Of a DNA stretch of 64,000 nt, positions 32,985 to 44,245 are shown piece by piece. The first letter of the stretch is position 1. Each line of letters opens with the position of its first letter. Below the pieces are notes generated by a model. It was not told the origin of the DNA. It searched no databases and was given only the letters and a program-made list of their open reading frames with translations. This stretch comes from Mycobacterium sp. (lineage in GTDB: Bacteria; Actinomycetota; Actinomycetes; Mycobacteriales; Mycobacteriaceae), in NCBI GenBank assembly GCA_020438845.1, contig JAGQTV010000011.1:62001-126000 (forward strand). The letters are read 5' to 3'. The position numbers and the translations under genes were made by a program.

Positions 32985-35900
32985 TCAAGGGTTCGGGGGC
33001 GTGGGAAGTTCTGGGCAAACCGGGACATACCCGATGTCGGCCGACACCCAGTCGTTCCACTCCTGACGGCTCATATTCTGAGTAATTTTGTCGCACAGTA
33101 TCTTTGGCCACGATGCCTCTTCAGGCGCGGGCCACAGGCGGAGGGTTCCCTCGGAGTCACCCGAGATCACGCGCTGTCCGTTGGGGCTGAACCCGACGCT
33201 GGTCACGGCCCCGGAGTGGCCGCTGAACGCCGCGCCGATGGGTCGGCCCGTATCAGCAGCCCAGAGCCGAAGCGTCTTGTCGGCGCTGCCCGACACGATC
33301 CGCTGCCCTTCCGGGGAGAACGCCAGGCTGTTCACCGCGTCGGTGTGCCCGGTCATCGCCGGCCCGATGGGTTGGCCGTTGTCGGCATCCCACAAGCGCA
33401 GGGTCTGGTCCCAGCTGCCCGACACGATCCGGTGGCCGTCCGGGCTGAACGCGACACTGGACACCACGTCGGTGTGCCCGATCATCGCCGGCCCGATGGG
33501 TTGGCCGTTGTCGGCATCCCACACTCGCACGGTTTTGTCGAAACCACCGGAGACGACGCGATGCCCGTCGGGGCTGAACGCGACAGACCACACCAGTTCG
33601 GTGTTTCCCTGCATCGGTTGGCCGATGAGTTGACCGGTGTCGGCATCCCATACCCGCAGAGCGTTGTCTGCCGCGCTCGCAGCGACGATCCGATGCCCGT
33701 CCGGGCTGAAGGCCGCCTTGATGACGATCAGGTCGGGAATGTCGGGAGGGCTGATCGGCGGCCCGATGGGCTGGCCGGTGTCGGCGTTCCACACCTGCAG
33801 CACGGCCTGCTTGTCGATGGCGAGGATCCGTTGTCCATCGGGACTGAAGGCAACCCTGGTCACTCCTGGGGTTGGCCCGGAAAGGGGGGCGCCTGCGGGC
33901 CGGCCGGTGTCAGCCTCCCATGTTCCCACCGTGTCGCCGATCGCGGCGACCACGCGACGTCCGTCGGGGCTGAACGCCGCGCTGGAGACCGGGCCCTGAC
34001 CGTTGACCAGGTCGGCGGTGTCGGAGTCCCACATTCGCACAGAATGGTCGCCGCCGCCGGAGAGGATGCGACGTCCGTCGGGGCTGAAGGCAACCGCTTG
34101 GACGTAACTCGTGTGTCCGGTGAGCGGAGCGCCGATCCGTTGGCCGGCGTCGACGTCCCAGACGATAACGGCATGGTCGGCGCTGCCCGACACCAGACGG
34201 CGGCCGTCCGGGCTGAAAGCCACTCCGTTACCCGAACCGTTCAGGGGTTCGCCTGCAGGCTCGCGGGTCTCGGCATCCCAGAGCCGGAGCGTGTCGTTGG
34301 CGGAACTGGCGGAGGCGATCAGGTGTCCGTCGGGGCTGAACGCCACGCCGGACACCTCGTCGCGACCGTCGATCGGCGGTTCGAGCGCCTGGCCGGTCGC
34401 AGCGTCCCACAGCCGCAGCGTCCGATCCGAGCTGCCCGATACGATGCGCTGCCCGTCGGGCGAAAATGCGACGGCGTTTACCGAGTCCGTATGCCCGGTC
34501 AACGGCGGGCCGACGGGTTGCCCGGTGGAGGCGTCCCACAGCCGTAGGGTTGTGTCTGCGCTGCCCGATACGATGCGCTGCCCGTCAGGTGAAAACGCCA
34601 CGCTGTGTACCGCGCCGGAGTGCCCGGTCAGCGGCTGGCCGATCTGTTGACCGGTATCGGCGTCCCACAACCGCAGCGTGTAATCCCAACTGCCTGAGAC
34701 GATGCGGTGCCCATCGGGACTGAACGCCACGCTGGTCACCACATCGGTGTGCCCGGTCATCGGAGGCCCGATGGGCTGGCCGGTGCCTGCGTTCCACCGC
34801 TGAAGCGTCTGGGCATTACCTGCCGAGACGAGGCGCTGCCCGTCGGGGCTGAATCCGACACTGCTGACCACTGCGCCGGTGGGGATGATTTTGACCGTCT
34901 GCCGCAGGGCGGTTACGCCGGCGAACAGCGCACCGGTATCCGCCGCGGCCGGCGCGATCAAGGGTGCTGCAAGGATCTGCTGAAGCGCCCGAACATCCCC
35001 TCCGCCCTGCGTACCGGCCAGCATGGACTGTCCTTGTGACGTCAACTTCAGAGCCACCGCTTCGCGCGTCCGCGCGTCGGCCTGGCGTCGCGCGGCGGTC
35101 GCCTGAACGACACCGACAACCGCGACAATGGCGCCGACGACCGCAACAACGGCGATCACGGCTGTCGCGGCCAGCACTCGGCGCAGGGTGCGTGAACGTT
35201 TGCGCAACACGACCGCGTGCTCCTGCGCCTGCTCCTTGGCGGCGGTTTCGGCAGCCGCGAGTTTCTCAGCGGCGTCCCGCCGGTCCTTTTCGGCTTGCAG
35301 TTCGGCTTCCCGTTGGCGCTTGTCGGCCTCCGCACGCTGATTCTCGCGCCCCTGGGAGGCGGCCAGGAAGTCACGGCAGGGTTGCAGCCGGTCCCGGAAC
35401 CCCGGTTCAGCGAACAGAACCTCGGCGTCGGCCAGACGCGTGCTGTGCAGCAGCCAGGCGTCGTCGCGGTGGTTCCTCTCCCACGACAGAGCACCACGTT
35501 CCAGCAAGTCGGCATTCTTGAGAGCGTCGCGTTGCTCGGCCAACCACTGAGCCAGGTCGTCCCACTGCCGCAGCAGGCTCTCCAACGCGACCTCGACGAC
35601 AACGTCACCGTCGCGGGTGTCTTTCACCAGTAATCGTTTGGCAACGAGCTTCTCGACCAGGGGACGGCTCGGCTCCGGCAGTTCGGTCCATTTGGCGACC
35701 CGTCGCATCGGCTGGTCGTTGTCGGCATTGATGGTCGCCAGCCACGGAATGAAGGCGGCACGTAACTGCCGGAGTTGGGCCTCCCGCTGCTCAGCGTCCG
35801 CGGACAAAAGGCTGTCCATCTCGGTGTGCACGACGCTGTGGATGCCACCCATCGACAGGTACTCGGGCAGTGAGAGGGTGCCGTCACTCCCGTAATCGGC

Positions 35901-37244
35901 GTAAAGCCGGGCCAGTGTAAGAGCCAGCAGCGGCAGCGTGTCAGCGCCTTCGGTGCAGTCATCGAGCAGCCGATTGACCAAAGCGGGTTCGATCTGGATC
36001 GGTTGGCCAGCGTCGGCGGCCCGCGCGGCGGGGCCGACGATCACCTCCTTGAACTGCGTGCGCGGCATCGGCTTGAGTTCGTCGAACAACACCGTCCCGA
36101 CACCGGCCAGCTGCGCAGCGGTCTGCAACGCCTGATAGCGGTCGGTACGGATCGTGACAGCGACGATCAGACCCAACGACTCCGACTCACTGGTGCCTGC
36201 GCCGGCCAGTTCGGCGATCAGATCGAGGAACAGTGCGGCCTCCGAACCGGCATCGGAGCCGAACAATTCCTCAGCCTGATCCAACGGCAGCACCAGGGTC
36301 GGTAACGGCATCTCGCCGGCCTCGGTCAGCAGTCGGGTGCTCGCCGCCTGTTGCACCTCCCGAAGCCACTGAGCTACTCGGGCACCCTCGCCACCCAGGC
36401 AGGCTTGTTTGATCTCGCCCAGCCCGGGTCCTGTCAACCCCATCCGAGTGCGGGTGGCGTGAATCGCACGGGCGAGACCGGTGTCCCCGGTCAGCACGTT
36501 GCGTTGCGGCCGGACGATCTGAAGCAGTACGAACTCGCGGTCGTCACGGCGTAGCCGCGGCAACAGACCGGCTCGGAGGAATGAGGACTTACCGGTTCCC
36601 GATGGGCCCAGAACGACGAAGAGTGTCTCCAATTCGGATCTGCGCATCCCACGCAACGCATCCAATCCGCGCAGGATCTGGGCGTCGCGGCCGAAGAACA
36701 CCGCAGCGTCGGCCTCTTCGAGCGGCTCCCATCCCCGATATGGCGCGCGTTCGGGGTCATTAGGTGGCGGCCACACGAATGACTCCGCGCCGATGCCTGC
36801 TCCGACTATCCCCTCCCGCAACCGGTACAGGCCCTCGGAAAGGAACGTGACTGGTGCTGCGCCGTCACCGATGTCGACTGCGGTGGTTGGGCCCGAACCG
36901 AACAGTTCGATCTGTTGCCATTCCCGGGTCGGGTCGTCCCCGGTGAGTGGGCCGATTCGGGCGGAAAAGATCTTCTTGTTCAGATACTCCGCGAACCGGT
37001 ATTCGGTCTTGCACTCCGCGGATGACTCCCAGTTTGGCGACAGTAGGCAGATCACCGCCTCGCATCGCGTGCTCGCCTGCCGCAACGCGTCCTTCCACCG
37101 CACACCAGACCGAATCCCGCCATCGCGATCCAGGTCCAGGAAGATTTCGTTGGCCAACGGCGGTTCCTGGCCGATCAGCCACTGCCGCAATGCAATCGCC
37201 TGCCGACTGTCCCGGCTGGAGTGGCTGAGAAAAATCCGCGACAT
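32985..37244 (-). CDS. TIR - nSTAND NTPase - transmembrane - WD40 protein
   Basis: 1419 residues. A TIR domain (about 1-100; IFLSHSSRDS and SSAECKTEYRFA, where Glu81 sits at the NADase glutamate position) leads into a STAND NTPase of the nSTAND1 type: PYRGWEPLEEADAAVFFGR near 168-186, Walker A GPSGTGKSS at 213-221, Walker B LVLPLDQAEELF at 317-328, then VTIRTDR. A charged coiled coil and one membrane helix (about 683-715) follow, then 14 WD40 repeats (about 785-1390), enough for two seven-bladed propellers. The layout is that of a sensor that oligomerises on ligand binding and triggers an NAD-consuming TIR effector, as in STAND-type immune proteins. That activity is inferred. It lies 177 bases downstream of the RyR gene on the same strand, probably cotranscribed. 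Confidence 0.93.
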   Translation of the reverse strand: MSRIFLSHSSRDSRQAIALRQWLIGQEPPLANEIFLDLDRDGGIRSGVRWKDALRQASTRCEAVICLLSPNWESSAECKTEYRFAEYLNKKIFSARIGPLTGDDPTREWQQIELFGSGPTTAVDIGDGAAPVTFLSEGLYRLREGIVGAGIGAESFVWPPPNDPERAPYRGWEPLEEADAAVFFGRDAQILRGLDALRGMRRSELETLFVVLGPSGTGKSSFLRAGLLPRLRRDDREFVLLQIVRPQRNVLTGDTGLARAIHATRTRMGLTGPGLGEIKQACLGGEGARVAQWLREVQQAASTRLLTEAGEMPLPTLVLPLDQAEELFGSDAGSEAALFLDLIAELAGAGTSESESLGLIVAVTIRTDRYQALQTAAQLAGVGTVLFDELKPMPRTQFKEVIVGPAARAADAGQPIQIEPALVNRLLDDCTEGADTLPLLALTLARLYADYGSDGTLSLPEYLSMGGIHSVVHTEMDSLLSADAEQREAQLRQLRAAFIPWLATINADNDQPMRRVAKWTELPEPSRPLVEKLVAKRLLVKDTRDGDVVVEVALESLLRQWDDLAQWLAEQRDALKNADLLERGALSWERNHRDDAWLLHSTRLADAEVLFAEPGFRDRLQPCRDFLAASQGRENQRAEADKRQREAELQAEKDRRDAAEKLAAAETAAKEQAQEHAVVLRKRSRTLRRVLAATAVIAVVAVVGAIVAVVGVVQATAARRQADARTREAVALKLTSQGQSMLAGTQGGGDVRALQQILAAPLIAPAAADTGALFAGVTALRQTVKIIPTGAVVSSVGFSPDGQRLVSAGNAQTLQRWNAGTGQPIGPPMTGHTDVVTSVAFSPDGHRIVSGSWDYTLRLWDADTGQQIGQPLTGHSGAVHSVAFSPDGQRIVSGSADTTLRLWDASTGQPVGPPLTGHTDSVNAVAFSPDGQRIVSGSSDRTLRLWDAATGQALEPPIDGRDEVSGVAFSPDGHLIASASSANDTLRLWDAETREPAGEPLNGSGNGVAFSPDGRRLVSGSADHAVIVWDVDAGQRIGAPLTGHTSYVQAVAFSPDGRRILSGGGDHSVRMWDSDTADLVNGQGPVSSAAFSPDGRRVVAAIGDTVGTWEADTGRPAGAPLSGPTPGVTRVAFSPDGQRILAIDKQAVLQVWNADTGQPIGPPISPPDIPDLIVIKAAFSPDGHRIVAASAADNALRVWDADTGQLIGQPMQGNTELVWSVAFSPDGHRVVSGGFDKTVRVWDADNGQPIGPAMIGHTDVVSSVAFSPDGHRIVSGSWDQTLRLWDADNGQPIGPAMTGHTDAVNSLAFSPEGQRIVSGSADKTLRLWAADTGRPIGAAFSGHSGAVTSVGFSPNGQRVISGDSEGTLRLWPAPEEASWPKILCDKITQNMSRQEWNDWVSADIGYVPVCPELPTPPNP
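33130..34900 (-). repeat. Fourteen tandem WD40-coding repeats
   Basis: The 3' part of the TIR-STAND gene is made of 14 units of roughly 120-130 bases, each encoding FSPDGxRIVSG and LRLWDADTGQPIG-type blades. Some units are nearly identical at the DNA level (for example those around 33350-33400 and 33475-33525), while others have drifted. This suggests recent unit duplication or gene conversion within the sensor. Confidence 0.9.
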
Positions 37245-37421
37245 GCGATCACCGGGTCCTGGGCATTACTGACATTTGCCAGTCCGACATCTGCCACTCC
37301 GACGCGCGCAGCCGTTGACCGGCGAACCGGCCCGGGTTGTTGCCCCGTCGCACCATACCGGTAGTCGAACCGCCCTCGCGCCATCCGATACCCGGCTGAG
37401 GGCGAAACCGGAAATCCTCGT

Positions 37422-39788
37422 TCACCACGGCAGCGGCCCCTCATAACGTTTCCGGAACTGTTCACCCGGAACGGGCCACTGTTCGCCTTGCTCACCTGCC
37501 ACGATCCAGTCGCCATCAGCGGCAGTCGCAGAACCCTCGAGGGTGTCGACGTTCTCCCCGGCCCGCGCGGGGCGGGCCCTGACGAAACCGGTTCGCCGCC
37601 AGCGATCCCCGCCGACATGCTGGTGGGTAGCCCGAAAGATGCCGTCGCGCACCGACCAGGTCTTCCCCGTGCCGTCGTGAATTGCCCAGTCGCCGGCGTC
37701 TCCGTGCATAACGTTCCCTGCCTCGGAAGTCCACGTCCATGCGTCGTTCTGTTGCTGAGCGACAACCGTCCCGGCCCGTCGATACCGCTGCCATACTGGC
37801 CTGGACCGGTAGCCCAGCTTCGCAAGCTCCAACAGTGTGTCGGCCAGGCTCTGCAGCGCGGTCTTCTTGAAGGACGGTGTGTGCTCGGCGGCGTCCCAGT
37901 CCAGCAGCTTGTCGTGGATCCGGCGCTCGTCGTCGCGGGTCGGCCCGTACCGCCACCCCGCTTCTCGGTAGAAGCGGCACCAGTCTTGGTGCTCGGCGCG
38001 TGCCATCGCGATCGCGGAATCGGCGTCAAAGCCGAGGAGCCTCAGCGTCTCGAGTGGCTCGGACCGTTGGTACATGTCAGATTCCGGAGGCGGCGCCGCC
38101 TGGCCGGCCGCGCTGTTCCAGCTGTGTCCGCCCATCGCCTCAACAATCCAGAGAATGTTGCGTACCTGTCGCCGGTTCGACTCGCGATGGAACTCGTCTA
38201 GTACAGCCCATGGCAGGGTTGCTGGGGTCCGGTGGCCGGTCTCGGCGGCGAACCTGTCGGCGAAGCGCTCGTGGATGAGCCTCGCTGCCCGCTCCCAGGA
38301 ATCCTGCGCCATACCGGCTGGCAGATCCATCCCGAGGCCAAAGGTGCGCAGCCGACCCACAATAGGGGCCCGGTCCTCCTGATGCCTGGCGTTGGGATCC
38401 CAGGCGTAGATCAGCATTGCGGGAAACCGTGCGGCCAGCCGTGTCCCCATCATGGTGTCGGCCGCAGCCGCGGCGCTGTCCACCAGGATCACGACCTGCG
38501 AATCGGCGTCGGCGTCCACCAAGTCCGTGAGCACCGGCACCGACGGCCGCTGCAGCACCACCGCGATGTCCGGGCGGCTTGCGCCCAGACCGAGCTGGTT
38601 CTCGTGGAACTCGTGGTCTCGCAGATACTCCTCGGCGTTGTCGTCGACGAGGGTCAGTGTTGGTAATCCGGCATCCTCGGGGTTGGCGCGGTAGGAGCGT
38701 TCCCGATGGCGTTGCGCAATGTCGGCGCACAGCGCCAGAGTCAGCGGAGATGAGCCGCAGACCACGATCCGGGTCACCGTCGGGTCCGCGGTGACCTCCT
38801 CGAGCAATCGGCGGGCCGTGACTTCGTACTTGCCGACCGCGTCTGCCGCCCAGCGGCTATCGGATCCACCGAATTGCCGGGCACGCCAGGCCTCGGCTTG
38901 CCAAGGGTCGTCGATCCGGACAATGAGAGGCACTCGCCGCCTTGCTGGGATGGCGCTCATACAGCGATTGATCATCTCGAGACGCGAAAGATTCGCCACC
39001 GGGTCAGGCGAGAGAAGGTACAGCCGGTCCAGCTTGCGCCAGACAGGCAACGATTCCAATGTCTCAGGCCGATCGAAATCGACAACGACGATTCGGGCAC
39101 CCTGTTGGCGGGCTTCCTGGACGGCCGGGATATCGGGGGTTTCGGTGATCACCACGAGTCGGCTTGTCGTTTCCAGAGTATTTCGGACCGCGTTGACCAT
39201 CGAACGCGCGTCATCGTCAACGCCGACAACCGCACTCACTGACTTGTCCGTATGAACCCGGATCCGATCGGCCTGCGAACGCAGCAGCGCGATCACCACG
39301 CCGCCGATGCCCACGAGGATCGCCGCGAGAGCGGATAGCCGGGCTATCTCCAGGGCGATCGGGGTGGGCGTCGGACAAGTGGTGCCGGAGATGGATTGGT
39401 CACCTGTTCCGCCTTTGAGTAGACCGATTGTCCACATCAGCGGTGTGTAGAAATACGGGTTCGCCGCCCCGTGGCAATTCCAGTACGAACTCAGCCCCAG
39501 CACGAAGTTCGCCACGGTCAGGGTCATGACGAACCGCACTGTGGTGGTTCCGGCATGACCAGTTCGACCGCCGACCACGGCGAGTGCACCGGCCGCGACG
39601 ACTATCGCCACCACAATCGTGATCGTCAGTGAGGACCCAGGCTGGCCGAACCAACGCAGGGCGGGCGGCATGCGCTCCCGCATCCCGGGGCGCAGAGCCA
39701 ACGCCGCGAGGAGGAACACGACGGCCACCGCCAATGAACGCGACACCCATCGAAGAATCTCGAAGACATTGCGCTTGCTTGGCCCCAC
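37422..39788 (-). CDS. Membrane protein with Rossmann (TrkA-N/RCK-like), RyR and PGDYG-like domains
   Basis: 788 residues. Four hydrophobic segments lie at about 17-33, 52-73, 83-101 and 150-170; between the third and fourth is FYTPLMWTIGLLKGGTGDQ, reminiscent of a pore loop. Two Rossmann-like domains follow (about 183-310 and 335-490). A RyR-like half (SNRRQVRNILWIVEAMG, about 497-552) and a clear RyR repeat (EHQDWCRFYREAGWRYGPTRDD, about 597-665) come next. The end has two PGDYG-like units (GDWAIHDGTGKTWSV near 699 and DGDWIVAGEQGEQWPV near 758). It looks like a ligand-gated channel or membrane receptor that binds a nucleotide. The start is GTG 39788 with GAGG upstream. It is followed by the TIR-STAND gene, so a joint system is likely. 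No experimental function is known to me. Confidence 0.85.
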   Translation of the reverse strand: MGPSKRNVFEILRWVSRSLAVAVVFLLAALALRPGMRERMPPALRWFGQPGSSLTITIVVAIVVAAGALAVVGGRTGHAGTTTVRFVMTLTVANFVLGLSSYWNCHGAANPYFYTPLMWTIGLLKGGTGDQSISGTTCPTPTPIALEIARLSALAAILVGIGGVVIALLRSQADRIRVHTDKSVSAVVGVDDDARSMVNAVRNTLETTSRLVVITETPDIPAVQEARQQGARIVVVDFDRPETLESLPVWRKLDRLYLLSPDPVANLSRLEMINRCMSAIPARRRVPLIVRIDDPWQAEAWRARQFGGSDSRWAADAVGKYEVTARRLLEEVTADPTVTRIVVCGSSPLTLALCADIAQRHRERSYRANPEDAGLPTLTLVDDNAEEYLRDHEFHENQLGLGASRPDIAVVLQRPSVPVLTDLVDADADSQVVILVDSAAAAADTMMGTRLAARFPAMLIYAWDPNARHQEDRAPIVGRLRTFGLGMDLPAGMAQDSWERAARLIHERFADRFAAETGHRTPATLPWAVLDEFHRESNRRQVRNILWIVEAMGGHSWNSAAGQAAPPPESDMYQRSEPLETLRLLGFDADSAIAMARAEHQDWCRFYREAGWRYGPTRDDERRIHDKLLDWDAAEHTPSFKKTALQSLADTLLELAKLGYRSRPVWQRYRRAGTVVAQQQNDAWTWTSEAGNVMHGDAGDWAIHDGTGKTWSVRDGIFRATHQHVGGDRWRRTGFVRARPARAGENVDTLEGSATAADGDWIVAGEQGEQWPVPGEQFRKRYEGPLPW

Positions 39789-39885: not shown

Positions 39886-42405
39886 TTATAGGCGCACGGG
39901 CATGGGATCGACGCCCCAGATGTCATTGCAGTAGTCGGCTACGGAACGGTCTGAGGAGAATTTCCCGCTGCGGGCCGTGTTGAGAACCGACATGTGCGAC
40001 CACTTGTCAGAATCCCGCCAGGCCGCGCTGACCTTGGCCTGGCAGTCGATGTAGGACCGGTAGTCGGCCAGCACCAGGAACGGGTCGTGATGAATCAGAT
40101 TGTCGACCAAGGGCCGTAGGACTTCGGTATCGCCATGGGTGAATGTTCCATGCACGATCAATTCCAGCACCTCAGCGAGTTCGGGATCGCCTTCGATGCA
40201 GTCGGCCGGTCGGTAGCCCTCGGACTTCAGGCGCTCGACCTCGTCGACTGTCATGCCGAACAGGAAAAAGTTCTCGGCCCCGGCTTCCTCCCGGATCTCG
40301 ACATTGGCACCGTCGAGCGTGCCGATGGTCAGCGCCCCGTTGATCATGAACTTCATGTTCCCGGTTCCGGAGGCTTCCTTGCCGGCGGTGGAGATCTGCT
40401 CAGAGAGGTTCGCCGCCGGGTAGATCAAATGCGCGTTCTGCACATTGAAGTTGGGCAGGAACACCACTCGCATATACCGGTTGGTGTCGGGGTCGTTGTT
40501 CACGGTGGCACCGATGGCCGTGATGAGCCGGATCATGCGTTTGGCCATGAAGTAGCCCGGGGCAGCCTTGCCGCCGAAGATGAACGCACGCGGCGCGATT
40601 GCCAGGCCGGGGTTCTGCTTCAGCCTGTTGTACAACGTGATGATGTGTAGCGCGTTGAGGTGCTGACGCTTGTATTCGTGGATCCGCTTGACCTGGATGT
40701 CGAACATCCAGGTCGGGTCCAGTTCGATGCCGGTGGTGGAGTGGACATACTCGGCCAGTCGGGACTTGTTCGCACGCTTGACTTCTCGCCAGCGTTGCCG
40801 GAACGACGGGTCATCAACGTAGGCTTCCAACCGGCGCAGCTGAGTCAGGTCGGTCAACCAGCCGTCGCCGATGGTGTCGTCGAGCAATGTGCGCAGCCCG
40901 GGGTTGGACAGCGCCACGAACCGCCTGGGCGTGACCCCGTTGGTGACATTGCCGAACCGCTCCGGCCACATCTCGTAAAAGTCGCGCAGCACACTGGCTT
41001 TGAGTAATTCGGAGTGAAGCGCCGCGACACCGTTGATGGCGTGGCTGCCCACGGTCGCCAGGTGCGCCATCCGCACGCATTTACCGTGGTCCTCACCGAT
41101 CAGTGACAATCGCGCCGCCCGTTCCTCGTCGCCCGGGAACCTCGAGCGCACCTCCTCCAGGAATCGATCGTTGATCTCGTAGATGATCTCCAGATGTCGA
41201 GGCAGGCATTCCGCGAAGATGGCCAACGGCCAGGTTTCCAGCGCCTCCGGCAGCAGCGTGTGGTTGGTGTAGCCGAACGTCGGCACGGTGAGCTGCCAGG
41301 CGGCATCCCACTCCAAGTGGTGGTCGTCGATCAGCAGTCGCATAAGTTCGGCGACGGCGATTGATGGGTGGGTGTCGTTGAGTTGGATTGCCCATTTGCG
41401 GGGTAACTCGCTCAGCGGCAGCCTGACCCGCTCAAGGTGTATCCGCAGAATGTCCTGCAGGGAGCAGGAGACGAAGAAGTACTGCTGTTGTAGTCGCAGC
41501 CGCTTCCCCGAATCAGGCTCGTCGTTGGGATAGAGCACCTTCGACACCTTCTCAGCGATGACCTCGTCTTCGACCGCCTTGTAGAAGTCGCCGGTGTTGA
41601 ACGCCTCCAAAGCGAACGATTCGACAGGTCGGGCGCTCCACAATGTCAGGGTGTTGCAGGTGTTCACGTCATAGCCCTGAACAGGTGTGTCGTAGGACAC
41701 GCCCTGAACCTGTTGGCGCGGAATCCACTGCACCCGTTGGTGCCCGGCCACATCCTGGTACGACTCGGTGTGTCCACCCCAGTTGACTATGTAATGCGCG
41801 TCCGGCTTGTCGATCTCCCACGGGTTGCCGTGCACCAGCCAGTTGTCGGTCTTCTCGACCTGCCAACCGTTCTGGATCTCCTGGTCGAAGATGCCGTACT
41901 CGTAGCGGATGCCGTAGCCGATCGAAGGACGTTGCAGGGTGGCCAGCGAATCCAGGTAGCAGGCGGCTAGCCGGCCCAGGCCGCCATTGCCGAGGCCGGG
42001 TTCCTGTTCGCAGGCCAGGATCACATCAAGATCCTGGCCGAGGGCGGCCATCGCCTCCCGGGCCTGGGTCTCAATGCCGAGGTTCAGCAGATTGTTCCCC
42101 AACTGCGGCCCCATCAAGAACTCGGCCGAGAGATAGCACGTGACTTTGGCGGGCGAATCCAGCCAATCCTGAGTGGTCGCCATCCAGCGCTGCTGCATCC
42201 GGTCGCGCACCGCCAAGGCCAGCGCGCGGTAATAGTGATCCGGGGTCAACGTGGCTGGTGGACGCGCGATCGAATAGATCAGGTGATCGCTGACCGCCCT
42301 GCGCAGCGCATCGGCAGACAGGCCGGTGCGGCTGCGTTCCTCTCCGTCGCGGGCCCCCCCATCGCGGTTTCCCAGGTGGCCGTCGGTGCCGATGACATCG
42401 GTCAT
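39886..42405 (-). CDS. glgP: Glycogen/starch phosphorylase
   Basis: 839 residues, the usual length for GlgP. It has the pyridoxal-phosphate lysine segment EASGTGNMKFMINGALTIGTLDGANVEI and other family blocks such as YLSAEFLMGPQLGNNLLNLG and VQLNDTHPSIAVAELMR-type sequence. It removes terminal glucose from glycogen as glucose 1-phosphate. The frame continues upstream to 42564, but ATG 42405 has GGAGGAAG just before it and starts the typical N-terminus. It is divergent from the potassium-channel gene with about 157 bases between. There are 97 bases before the RyR gene start downstream, so the two could share a transcript, but no functional link is apparent. Confidence 0.96.
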   Translation of the reverse strand: MTDVIGTDGHLGNRDGGARDGEERSRTGLSADALRRAVSDHLIYSIARPPATLTPDHYYRALALAVRDRMQQRWMATTQDWLDSPAKVTCYLSAEFLMGPQLGNNLLNLGIETQAREAMAALGQDLDVILACEQEPGLGNGGLGRLAACYLDSLATLQRPSIGYGIRYEYGIFDQEIQNGWQVEKTDNWLVHGNPWEIDKPDAHYIVNWGGHTESYQDVAGHQRVQWIPRQQVQGVSYDTPVQGYDVNTCNTLTLWSARPVESFALEAFNTGDFYKAVEDEVIAEKVSKVLYPNDEPDSGKRLRLQQQYFFVSCSLQDILRIHLERVRLPLSELPRKWAIQLNDTHPSIAVAELMRLLIDDHHLEWDAAWQLTVPTFGYTNHTLLPEALETWPLAIFAECLPRHLEIIYEINDRFLEEVRSRFPGDEERAARLSLIGEDHGKCVRMAHLATVGSHAINGVAALHSELLKASVLRDFYEMWPERFGNVTNGVTPRRFVALSNPGLRTLLDDTIGDGWLTDLTQLRRLEAYVDDPSFRQRWREVKRANKSRLAEYVHSTTGIELDPTWMFDIQVKRIHEYKRQHLNALHIITLYNRLKQNPGLAIAPRAFIFGGKAAPGYFMAKRMIRLITAIGATVNNDPDTNRYMRVVFLPNFNVQNAHLIYPAANLSEQISTAGKEASGTGNMKFMINGALTIGTLDGANVEIREEAGAENFFLFGMTVDEVERLKSEGYRPADCIEGDPELAEVLELIVHGTFTHGDTEVLRPLVDNLIHHDPFLVLADYRSYIDCQAKVSAAWRDSDKWSHMSVLNTARSGKFSSDRSVADYCNDIWGVDPMPVRL

Positions 42406-42548
42406 TGCTTCCTCCACGCTGCAGCGGCAATCCGTTGGCTGCGGGCCGAAGCGTGTCACCGTCATGTTTCCAACACGCAATGTCCGCGGGTCGGTTTGGT
42501 GAACACCCAGGTCAACGGGGTAAACGAGAGAAAAGTCCGGACTCCACG

Positions 42549-42562
42549 TAGCTTTCTGGCGC
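42549..42562 (+). promoter_or_regulatory. Candidate -10 box, leaderless start of the channel gene
   Basis: TAGCTT at 42549-42554 matches TANNNT and ends eight bases before the ATG at 42563, with no ribosome-binding site present. It could drive a leaderless transcript. No -35 element is evident. Confidence 0.35.
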
Positions 42563-44245
42563 ATGAGCGGTCACATCATCGTCTACGGAGATGACGCACT
42601 GGCAATGCAGATCACCAATGAGTTCACCGACGCCGGGCTGAGCGTGGTCTCCCTCCGCTCCCCCGCCGACCTACGCGGGTCCGGAGTTGTTTCCGCGACT
42701 GCCGTCGTGGCGGCGTCCGGAGACGACGCGGTGAATCTCGAGGTTGCTTTACTTGCTCGAAGAGCCAACCCATGGACCCGGGTGGTGGCGCGTATCGCCA
42801 ACCCGGTGCTGAACAAGGCCATGAAGGCCGACCATGGGCCGGGAGCGGTACTCGATGTAGCCGACCTGGCCGCGCCGTCGGTAGTGGAGGCCCTGCTCGA
42901 GAGGACGGCTCACCACATCAACGTCGGCGAAGAGGACTTCGTGGTGTCCGGCGCTCCGGCACCCCGGGATGGGACGCTGCGGGAAATTTACGGGCGGCTG
43001 GCACCGGTGGCCGTCATTCGCGGCGAGGACAACCCGAACCCAGGCGAGGTGATCGCCTGCCCGCCGTTAGATCTTCCAGTCAGGCAAGGCGATTTCACCT
43101 CGATGATCGGCCGCGCTGAAGACCTTGCAGCCCAGGGCTTTCGGGCGCCACGGGCAACCGAGACAACGGACCGAACGCGTCCGCTCCCGGGGCGGCTCGT
43201 GGACGCGGTTCGAGCGTTCAACGATGACCTCAACCCGAACTTCTTCCGTGCGCTGGCGGTGTTGGGGGTGTTGCTGGTGGGCTCGACGTTCGTGCTGCAT
43301 TTCGGCTACCGCAATCCCCCCATGAGCTGGATGGATGCCATCTATTTCTCCACCGAGACCCTGGCCACCGTCGGGTTCGGCGACTTCAACTTCCTGCAGC
43401 AACCGCTGTGGCTTCGGATGTGGAGCTTGCTGATGATGCTCGGGGGTGTCGCGACCATCGCCGTCGTGGTGGCCTTTATCGCCGACGTGCTGGTGTCCCG
43501 CCGGCTCGCCCAGGCGGCCAGCCGTCAGAAGGTGCGCCACCTGAGTGGGCACTACGTCGTGGTCGGTCTCGGCTCATTCGGCATCCGGGTGGCCGGCATG
43601 CTCAAGCAGGCCGGCTGCCCCGTGGTGGTGATCGAACGCAACGAAGCCAACCGGTATCTGGCCGAAGCCGCCGCGCTGAAAATACCGGTTTTGCTCGGCG
43701 ACGCGACGCTACGCAACACCCTCGACACGGCACGCGTGAAACACGCACGGGCGGTGGCGGTGCTCACCGAGGATGACATGGTCAACATCGAAACCGCGCT
43801 GGTGATGCGGGAGATGATGGGACCCGACGAGACTCCGGACGGCAGAAAGACTCCCATTGTGGTGCGGATCTATGATCGTGACCTCGGCGACGCCGTGGCT
43901 CACCGACACGACTTCAGCCACGTGCGCTCCACAGTCGATCTGGCCACCCCGTGGTTCGTCGGCGCTGCGATGGGTCTGGAGGTGCTCGGCACCTTCTCGG
44001 TCGGACAACGCTCCTTCATGGTGGGCGGATTACGGGTTGCCCCCGGCAGCGAGCTCGACGGGATCCGAATGGGTGAGGTGTCCACCCGAACGCGGGCGAT
44101 CGCGTTGACCCGGTCCGGCATGGCGATGACGTTGCATCCGAACCGCGAAACCACATTGCAGGCCAACGACATTGCCTACCTGGTGGGGCCCTACCACGAG
44201 CTGCTGGAGGCGCTGCGTCGCGGACAACGCGGCAAGACCGGATAG
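42563..44245 (+). CDS. Potassium channel protein with N- and C-terminal RCK (TrkA-N) domains
   Basis: 560 residues. An N-terminal NAD-binding Rossmann domain (IIVYGDDALAMQI, about 1-130) precedes two membrane helices (about 228-247 and 288-315) flanking the selectivity filter TVGFGD near 270. A second RCK domain follows with VVVGLGSFGIRVAG near 330 and DATLRNTL, then a TrkA-C-like end. A two-helix pore plus RCK domains is a ligand-gated potassium channel in the plasma membrane, probably regulated by nucleotide or ion binding to the Rossmann domains. ATG 42563 is the only good start. It converges on sthA with 20 bases between the stops. Confidence 0.92.
   Translation: MSGHIIVYGDDALAMQITNEFTDAGLSVVSLRSPADLRGSGVVSATAVVAASGDDAVNLEVALLARRANPWTRVVARIANPVLNKAMKADHGPGAVLDVADLAAPSVVEALLERTAHHINVGEEDFVVSGAPAPRDGTLREIYGRLAPVAVIRGEDNPNPGEVIACPPLDLPVRQGDFTSMIGRAEDLAAQGFRAPRATETTDRTRPLPGRLVDAVRAFNDDLNPNFFRALAVLGVLLVGSTFVLHFGYRNPPMSWMDAIYFSTETLATVGFGDFNFLQQPLWLRMWSLLMMLGGVATIAVVVAFIADVLVSRRLAQAASRQKVRHLSGHYVVVGLGSFGIRVAGMLKQAGCPVVVIERNEANRYLAEAAALKIPVLLGDATLRNTLDTARVKHARAVAVLTEDDMVNIETALVMREMMGPDETPDGRKTPIVVRIYDRDLGDAVAHRHDFSHVRSTVDLATPWFVGAAMGLEVLGTFSVGQRSFMVGGLRVAPGSELDGIRMGEVSTRTRAIALTRSGMAMTLHPNRETTLQANDIAYLVGPYHELLEALRRGQRGKTG

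Follow-up and report, generated by a model that had tools for sequence, protein, structure and literature searches.

Thoeris systems join the TIR protein ThsB to an effector, ThsA, of either the SIR2-SLOG or the transmembrane (TM)-Macro type, and a passage of PMC11204291 places the ThsA of TM-Macro Thoeris in the membrane as well. In phages, proteins with an RyR domain (PF02026) cleave or bind 2'/3' cyclic ADP-ribose (cADPR), as parts of a 2026 preprint (PMC13232231) report. One of these, RyDEP, holds 3'cADPR using residues H75, W78, H100 and D117; evasion by RyDEP in vivo was tested with Thoeris in B. subtilis, the authors noting that mycobacterial tools are lacking. The portion of that preprint covered here describes no bacterial TIR-RyR pair. 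Among RCK-gated channels, CASTOR is a Ca2+ channel with two tandem RCK domains, as stated in a section of PMC6697748. Here we analyse two adjacent genes in a 64,000-nucleotide stretch of Mycobacterium sp. DNA (contig JAGQTV010000011.1, positions 62,001 to 126,000; the whole stretch is hereafter called the window), which encode a large TIR protein, P0001, and a membrane protein with an RyR domain, P0002. We find that TIR and RyR genes are strongly paired across relatives and, with rather more confidence than doubt, we read the pair as a two-gene Thoeris-like module, in which a TIR receptor would produce a signal derived from nicotinamide adenine dinucleotide (NAD) for an RyR/RCK membrane effector. 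Among the matches listed in our literature search, none reports a bacterial TIR-RyR pair; neither RyR nor ryanodine occurs in PMC9503650 or PMC7159879, and in PMC8195603 ryanodine is found in the reference list only.

The gene pair and its two proteins

The two open reading frames (ORFs) have exactly the coordinates originally predicted, and the TIR gene lies directly downstream of the RyR gene on a common strand. A promoter and terminator scan of the 177-bp gap between them found no such site, with counts near those of shuffled sequences. At E 0.001 they are the sole TIR_2 match and the sole RyR match in the 4.53-Mb genome. Their features are as follows (residues of each protein in brackets, with the basis of the call).

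32985..37244, (-): P0001, TIR–nSTAND1 NTPase–TM helix–14 WD40 protein, 1419 amino acids (aa) (ORF, Pfam)
36855..37244, (-): TIR domain with Glu81 at the NADase position (1-130; TIR_2 above cut-off)
35460..36743, (-): nSTAND1 NTPase with Walker A GPSGTGKS (168-595; PF20703, 224 bits, and motif)
35106..35162, (-): predicted single TM helix (695-713; hydropathy 3.12)
33075..34877, (-): 14 WD40 repeats (~790-1390; Pfam and motif count)
37245..37421, (-): intergenic gap between P0002 and P0001, 177 bp (ORF coordinates, promoter/terminator scan)
37422..39788, (-): P0002, TM–tandem Rossmann/RCK-like–RyR–PGDYG protein, 788 aa (ORF, Pfam, hhalign)
39264..39788, (-): membrane part (1-175; hydropathy, alignment, column counts)
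38229..39263, (-): two Rossmann/RCK-like domains (176-520; hhalign to the TrkA_N family)
37806..38009, (-): RyR domain with H600, W603, W612, R618 and H625 (594-661; PF02026, RyDEP alignment)
37434..37721, (-): PGDYG C-terminal region (690-785; PF14083, alignment)

For P0001, Pfam and motifs agree with the domains first proposed. The TIR domain scores 42 bits against a TIR_2 cut-off of 28, the nSTAND1 profile is accompanied by the Walker A motif at residue 213 and a Walker-B-like LVLPLDQAE at 317, and the WD40 region (405 bits in Pfam) shows 14 WD-type repeat ends by motif count, expected to form two seven-bladed propellers. Between the NTPase and WD40 parts sits a strong hydrophobic helix that is absent from the original prediction. 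As the repeats probably lie beyond this TM helix, an intracellular WD40 sensor is doubtful. The catalytic glutamate (the Glu81 column) is kept in 79 of the 80 TIR matches from loci with an RyR gene, the sole exception being a partial match with a gap at that column, and in all 13 TIR matches from other fetched loci, a conservation in keeping with the NADase or cyclase activity predicted for the TIR domain.

P0002 likewise proves to be a membrane protein with Rossmann, RyR and PGDYG regions. RyR is above its Pfam cut-off (35.6 bits against 27.4) and PGDYG marginally so (27.4 against 27.0, matching residues 755-783); the PGDYG region probably consists of two repeats, the second read by eye from the alignment. 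The Rossmann region has no Pfam match of its own and was recognised by profile comparison; in its first domain, column counts show a degenerate glycine-rich loop, replaced by a VDDD-like stretch. The multi-TM N-terminus is an addition to the first account: hydropathy gives TM helices at 14-32, 54-72 and 151-169, the alignment suggests a fourth at ~82-102, and a pore-loop-like stretch lies between the last two. Within this part, all 44 relatives share Cys105, and all but two of the 44 share Cys138. A TM pair with a loop followed by Rossmann/RCK domains is the layout of RCK/TrkA_N channels, and P0002 may, on this basis, conduct ions. The P0002-family profile matches the chains of RyR1-3 (best 73 bits), and Pfam finds no further ryanodine-receptor domain in P0002.

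Linkage of TIR and RyR genes across relatives

To place the pair among relatives, 148 genomes of the genus were searched with P0002 and with TIR_2, with a distance limit of 8.5 kb. P0002 matches were found in 59 genomes and TIR_2 matches in 79. A TIR_2 match lies within 8.5 kb of 52 of the 54 mostly complete P0002 relatives (a few of which cover P0002 in part, the G010 copy about half) and within 1.5 kb of 40, where random placement predicts ~0.4 linked copies. The two exceptions are a copy in G032 (L066), where the end of the contig holds the NTPase and WD40 parts of a gene of this kind, and a copy in G041 on an 18-kb contig without a TIR match. A TIR is present in 53/53 genomes with a mostly complete P0002 copy and in 26/95 others (Fisher p ~1e-20, which is too small since the species are related). 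Eight short or decayed P0002 matches were excluded. Two of them (G075, G094) lie within ~1 kb of a TIR match, and two (G094 and G121:C18) are genes of the second RyR family described below. Decayed RyR remnants with stops are seen at G075:C1:2379362-2379781 and G115:C1:2614278-2614559 (L090, L089), both in genomes of ~3.3 Mb; the G075 remnant has, at a distance of 0.7 kb, a TIR match that is itself decayed and scores under the family cut-off.

A second set, 71 loci from a contig search, overlaps the 148 genomes in species and is not independent of them. Using a profile of nine TIRs from such loci, whose hits were not individually checked with Pfam, we found a TIR ORF in 59 of the 71, within 500 bp in 41 and within 1.5 kb in 53. 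The TIR gene follows the RyR gene in tandem in 30 loci and precedes it in 3; 15 arrangements are convergent and 11 divergent. When neighbours within 5 kb were clustered, the main TIR cluster was the top neighbour family, present in 25 of 37 RyR groups (53 loci), and the next cluster reached 10 groups (15 loci); counting any TIR ORF gives 26 groups and 55 loci.

The kind of TIR partner changes while the linkage persists. By similarity to P0001 and to a Pfam-scanned protein of L035, the nearest partners in the 71 loci are TIR-PknH_C (28), TIR-NTPase-WD40 (17), TIR-WD40 (2) and other TIRs (12), with none in 12. On a quick tree of 53 RyR proteins, which has some open forks and two long branches, there are at least 5 changes among the STAND-WD40, PknH_C and WD40-alone types, 9 if the mixed class 'other' is included and 2 for STAND-WD40 versus PknH_C alone. 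Outside the genus, P0002 has few relatives: a search of 394 genomes of the class gave matches in 2 other genera, in one of them a weak match. Further relatives were found on a mobilizable Rhodococcus qingshengii plasmid, in Gordonia, in Georgenia and in a Propionibacteriaceae metagenome-assembled genome (MAG); those on MAG contigs that bear the labels Bifidobacterium and Acidobacteria seem to be the result of wrong binning.

TIR genes without a P0002 neighbour led to a second RyR family, here called family B, with the architecture 2TM-TrkA_N-RyR (TrkA_N 60-67 bits, RyR 43 bits and 568-622 aa in the first three members scanned). It occurs in 12 of the 148 genus genomes, and of its 11 near-full copies (not counting a G058 fragment) 10 have a TIR no more than 8.5 kb away. 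In an hhalign comparison, the P0002 and family B profiles match with a probability of 100 (E 2e-38). The match extends over 532 columns and takes in the last two TM helices, RCK and RyR, which indicates that a tandem RCK, in diverged form, makes up the Rossmann region of P0002. Among solved structures, the family B profile matches RCK domains of TrkA, KefC and K+ channels, and GLGxxG is intact in all 11 aligned sequences. A plasmid search with a family B protein gave no match. The co-occurrence foreseen by the original prediction is thus strongly positive in two families of RyR protein and with several kinds of TIR partner.

Other RyR arrangements were seen beside these families. An Actinomycetota-wide PF02026 search matched 19 of 396 genomes, some with family B and others with RyR after an N-terminal part that has no Pfam match. 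The latter include C-terminal RyR domains in ORFs of 567-660 aa in L213-L219 (four scanned); G820 (L214, L216) has two such ORFs with a TIR ORF within 4 kb, the one TIR ORF scanned carrying propeller repeats. In another family of the order, L227:7929-10512, a 119-aa RyR-only ORF (PF02026, 101 bits) overlaps the end of a TIR ORF, which also has a sub-threshold PNP_UDP_1 match. Clusters of family B RyR pieces with TIR matches stand at G043:C171 and at G136:C1:2149856-2156041; G136, the genome of the closest relative, holds both RyR families.

In the window itself, glgP (39886-42564) lies upstream of the pair; the genome has a second copy of it on C21, with 70% identity. An empty-site search through glgP in four fetched relative loci found none, and at the DNA level only glgP matches window positions 20001-50000. 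Close to the pair and divergent from glgP, the interval 42563-44245 encodes another protein, which resembles a K+ channel (Ion_trans_2, TrkA_N) and has no RyR.

A proposed relay and its alternatives

Of the 67 ORFs that are the nearest TIR partners (59 next to P0002 relatives, 8 next to family B), 61 have a TM segment behind the TIR domain. The parts behind this helix are PknH_C, WD40, PKD-PD40 (L222) and, in L225, a sub-threshold Septum_form match. Because NAD and ATP are cytoplasmic, the part behind the helix should be outside, and the sensor part of most partner TIRs is thus probably outside the cytoplasm. Lysine and arginine are more numerous on the TIR side in 39 of the 61 partners, equal in 7 and fewer in 15, a positive-inside count that supports the predicted topology and does not settle it. 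At L035:6314-7813 and similar loci, the partner is a TIR–TM–PknH_C protein of ~500 aa, and PknH_C is a domain that Pfam names extracellular; a literature search for PknH with a TIR domain in Mycobacterium turned up no paper.

That RyR domains could read TIR products, a premise of the original prediction, has biochemical precedent in the phage RyR proteins, as reported in parts of PMC13232231, and three of the four RyDEP ligand residues are kept here. In 44 P0002-type proteins, the H75 column (H600) is H in 41, the W78 column (W603) is W in 44 and the H100 column (H625) is H in 43; P0002 itself has all three. The D117 column, where the alignment is uncertain, is D in 9/44 and not in P0002, which consequently lacks the catalytic dyad of H75 and D117 that RyDEP has. 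With the ligand-binding residues kept and the catalytic acid mostly not, the RyR domain of P0002 would read its ligand and not hydrolyse it, provided that this is also the ligand of RyDEP. Family B keeps H75 in 11/11, W78 in 10/11, D117 in 10/11 and H100 in 1/11. A phage search with P0002 gave, among the matches listed, weak RyR or PGDYG fragments only.

We therefore sketch the module as follows, on the strength of domain content and residue conservation. P0001 would be a membrane-anchored receptor, its TIR and STAND NTPase parts cytoplasmic, followed by one TM helix and by WD40 propellers that probably face outwards. Once it senses a trigger, P0001 would oligomerise, and its TIR domain, through Glu81, would use NAD+ to make a signal of the ADP-ribose type, with an isomer of cADPR as the likeliest candidate. 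P0002 would be the receiver: its RyR domain would bind the nucleotide, and the tandem RCK-like module would relay binding to the TM, pore-like part, opening an ion path by which the cell is halted or killed, presumably against phage or another attack. More tentatively, and with our doubts slightly the greater, we generalise this to a relay in mycobacteria and relatives, in which TIR receptors with interchangeable outside sensors make a messenger of the cADPR type, and this opens an RCK-type channel resembling a ryanodine receptor. If true, the relay would represent a new TIR immune type whose effector is an ion channel; it would parallel cADPR-ryanodine receptor signalling in bacteria, be naturally targeted by mycobacteriophage RyDEP, and add a new type of sensor and effector to TIR immunity. 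Direct action of cADPR on ryanodine receptors in animals has long been disputed; with an RyR domain repeatedly beside an enzyme family that includes makers of cADPR isomers, and in a protein much smaller than an animal RyR, direct gating by an NAD-derived nucleotide becomes testable.

A number of observations weigh against this reading. As regards linkage, 12 of the 71 loci have no TIR; seven of these are short contigs or contig ends, and L115, L117, L144, L148 and L160 lack one despite long flanks. In 11 of the 37 RyR groups there is no TIR inside 5 kb. The eleventh family B copy (G121) is 27 kb away from a TIR, and there are stops inside the family B matches of G028, G036 and G080. Conversely, among 12 fetched loci in which a long TIR ORF (1343-1504 aa; STAND and WD40 were checked in some of them) stands without a P0002 neighbour, 10 have no RyR gene of either family beside the TIR. 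For six of these ten, the genome holds a relative of P0002 at another place (G033, G036, G041 twice, G058 and G114). The resulting asymmetry, an RyR gene rarely without a TIR and a long TIR often without an RyR, fits a model of TIR sender and RyR receiver. As regards the ligand, the D117 acid is mostly missing, and H75, W78 and H100 belong to a general RyR motif which in animals has adenine ligands too, so that another adenine nucleotide is possible. As regards the pore, the TM regions of P0002 and family B match no Pfam ion channel (no Ion_trans_2), a profile comparison with the window's K+ channel aligns only the RCK part, and P0002 itself aligns to that channel weakly, again in the RCK part (probability 29). 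The original idea that the RyR/Rossmann protein gates a pore is not backed by any recognisable K+ pore, and we dropped the candidate identification of P0002 as a K+ channel for this reason.

The defence role is likewise unsupported around the pair itself: a PADLOC scan of 10 neighbours in the window found known defence genes in 0/10, so that the expected enrichment near defence islands was not borne out there. Near some relatives, defence-type genes do occur. Of 135 loci searched, 3 have a DUF4062 gene close to the RyR gene, and two of these loci are distinct (L098 and L083/L164); on the Rhodococcus plasmid the DUF4062 gene stands 229 bp from the RyR gene in divergent orientation; DUF4062 is reported, in a passage of PMC13174449, as a TIR-like anti-phage NADase. 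The partner TIR of L083 scores 208 bits against the PADLOC TIR-TM model. In the closest relative, the TIR-STAND-WD40 gene is directly followed by a patatin-like phospholipase resembling PADLOC effector phospholipases (L031:2376-3560), and in L176 a DUF3376 patatin adjoins another TIR gene. Phage defence would be one use of the pair; a different one would be envelope or stress signalling, in which the outside domain (PknH_C, WD40, PKD or others) would detect a signal from the cell wall, with the channel regulating the balance of ions. The TM segments of the partner TIRs, some with a domain that Pfam names extracellular, and the lack of defence genes among the 10 window neighbours speak for this; it is made somewhat unlikely by the patchy spread of P0002 (any match in 59/148 genomes), the copy on a mobilizable plasmid, the changing partners and the DUF4062, patatin and TIR-TM-like genes near relatives.

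Other alternatives concern what P0002 does with the TIR product. It could be a brake that, as a sponge or hydrolase fixed in the membrane, clears the TIR nucleotide and sets the threshold, as RyDEP acts against Thoeris. Phage PF02026 proteins do bind or hydrolyse 2'/3'cADPR, and family B keeps the dyad equivalents (H 11/11, D 10/11). We nonetheless regard a brake as improbable: in the P0002 family the acid is D in 9/44, a pure sponge would need neither the conserved multi-TM region nor the tandem RCK, and, in the parts of PMC13232231 that deal with them, the other homologues that were assayed did not degrade the signal. RCK domains commonly bind NAD(H). If the TIR simply depleted NAD, the RCK/Rossmann part might sense NAD(H) or redox state, the RyR being structural or binding ADP-ribose or ATP; the Rossmann homology of P0002 and the intact GLGxxG of all 11 family B sequences are in keeping with this. 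The replacement of the glycine loop in the first Rossmann domain of P0002 and the conserved RyR ligand residues argue the other way, and we consider NAD sensing more improbable still. That the two genes merely share a genomic hotspot, with no functional tie, would suit the several chromosomal contexts of the relatives (judged by eye from neighbouring ORFs) and the few copies without a TIR. It is very hard to square with 52 linked copies of 54 where ~0.4 are expected, with linkage that outlasts changes of partner and recurs in family B, and with the want of any other neighbour family close in frequency.

Comparison with known systems

The preferred reading of the pair, a TIR receptor that signals to an RyR/RCK membrane effector, resembles Thoeris in that a TIR enzyme with a catalytic Glu is adjacent to a separate protein with a predicted nucleotide-binding sensor. 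It differs in that no SLOG or Macro domain was found in P0002, whose sensor is an RyR domain on an RCK-type membrane protein, and in that the TIR is part of a large STAND/TM receptor. PADLOC and NCBIfam gave no match for P0002 and Pfam only RyR and PGDYG, so that P0002 lacks the features of a ThsA-type effector; P0001 has no ThsB match. Among five TIR proteins scanned, weak ThsB matches (E ~1e-4) appeared only in the PknH-type protein of L035 and the Georgenia TIR, and L083 has a sub-threshold match to type III Thoeris. We dropped the identification of the pair as Thoeris itself, the effector feature being absent.

With RyDEP (PDB 35TM), P0002 shares PF02026 and the equivalents of H75, W78 and H100. 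At 139 aa, RyDEP is a glycosidase encoded by a phage, and other RyR proteins of phages act as sponges, whereas P0002 is a 788-aa membrane protein encoded next to the TIR and without a D117 equivalent. Like the RCK-gated channels GsuK, Kch and CASTOR, P0002 has a TM region followed by tandem Rossmann/RCK-like domains, and the family B profile matches TrkA and PDB entries 4gx0 and 1id1, which we take to be GsuK and Kch. Unlike them, P0002 has no recognisable pore family and carries an extra RyR sensor towards its C-terminus. It shares the RyR repeat with animal ryanodine receptors, which are of ~5000 aa against its 788 and differ in their membrane part. Finally, beyond the TIR domain we claim no homology to animal Toll-like receptors, from which the partner TIRs differ in reversed order (TIR N-terminal), in other sensor domains and in being predicted enzymes; the likeness is one of topology only, with a sensor, one TM helix and a TIR domain in a single protein, as predicted for most partner TIRs.

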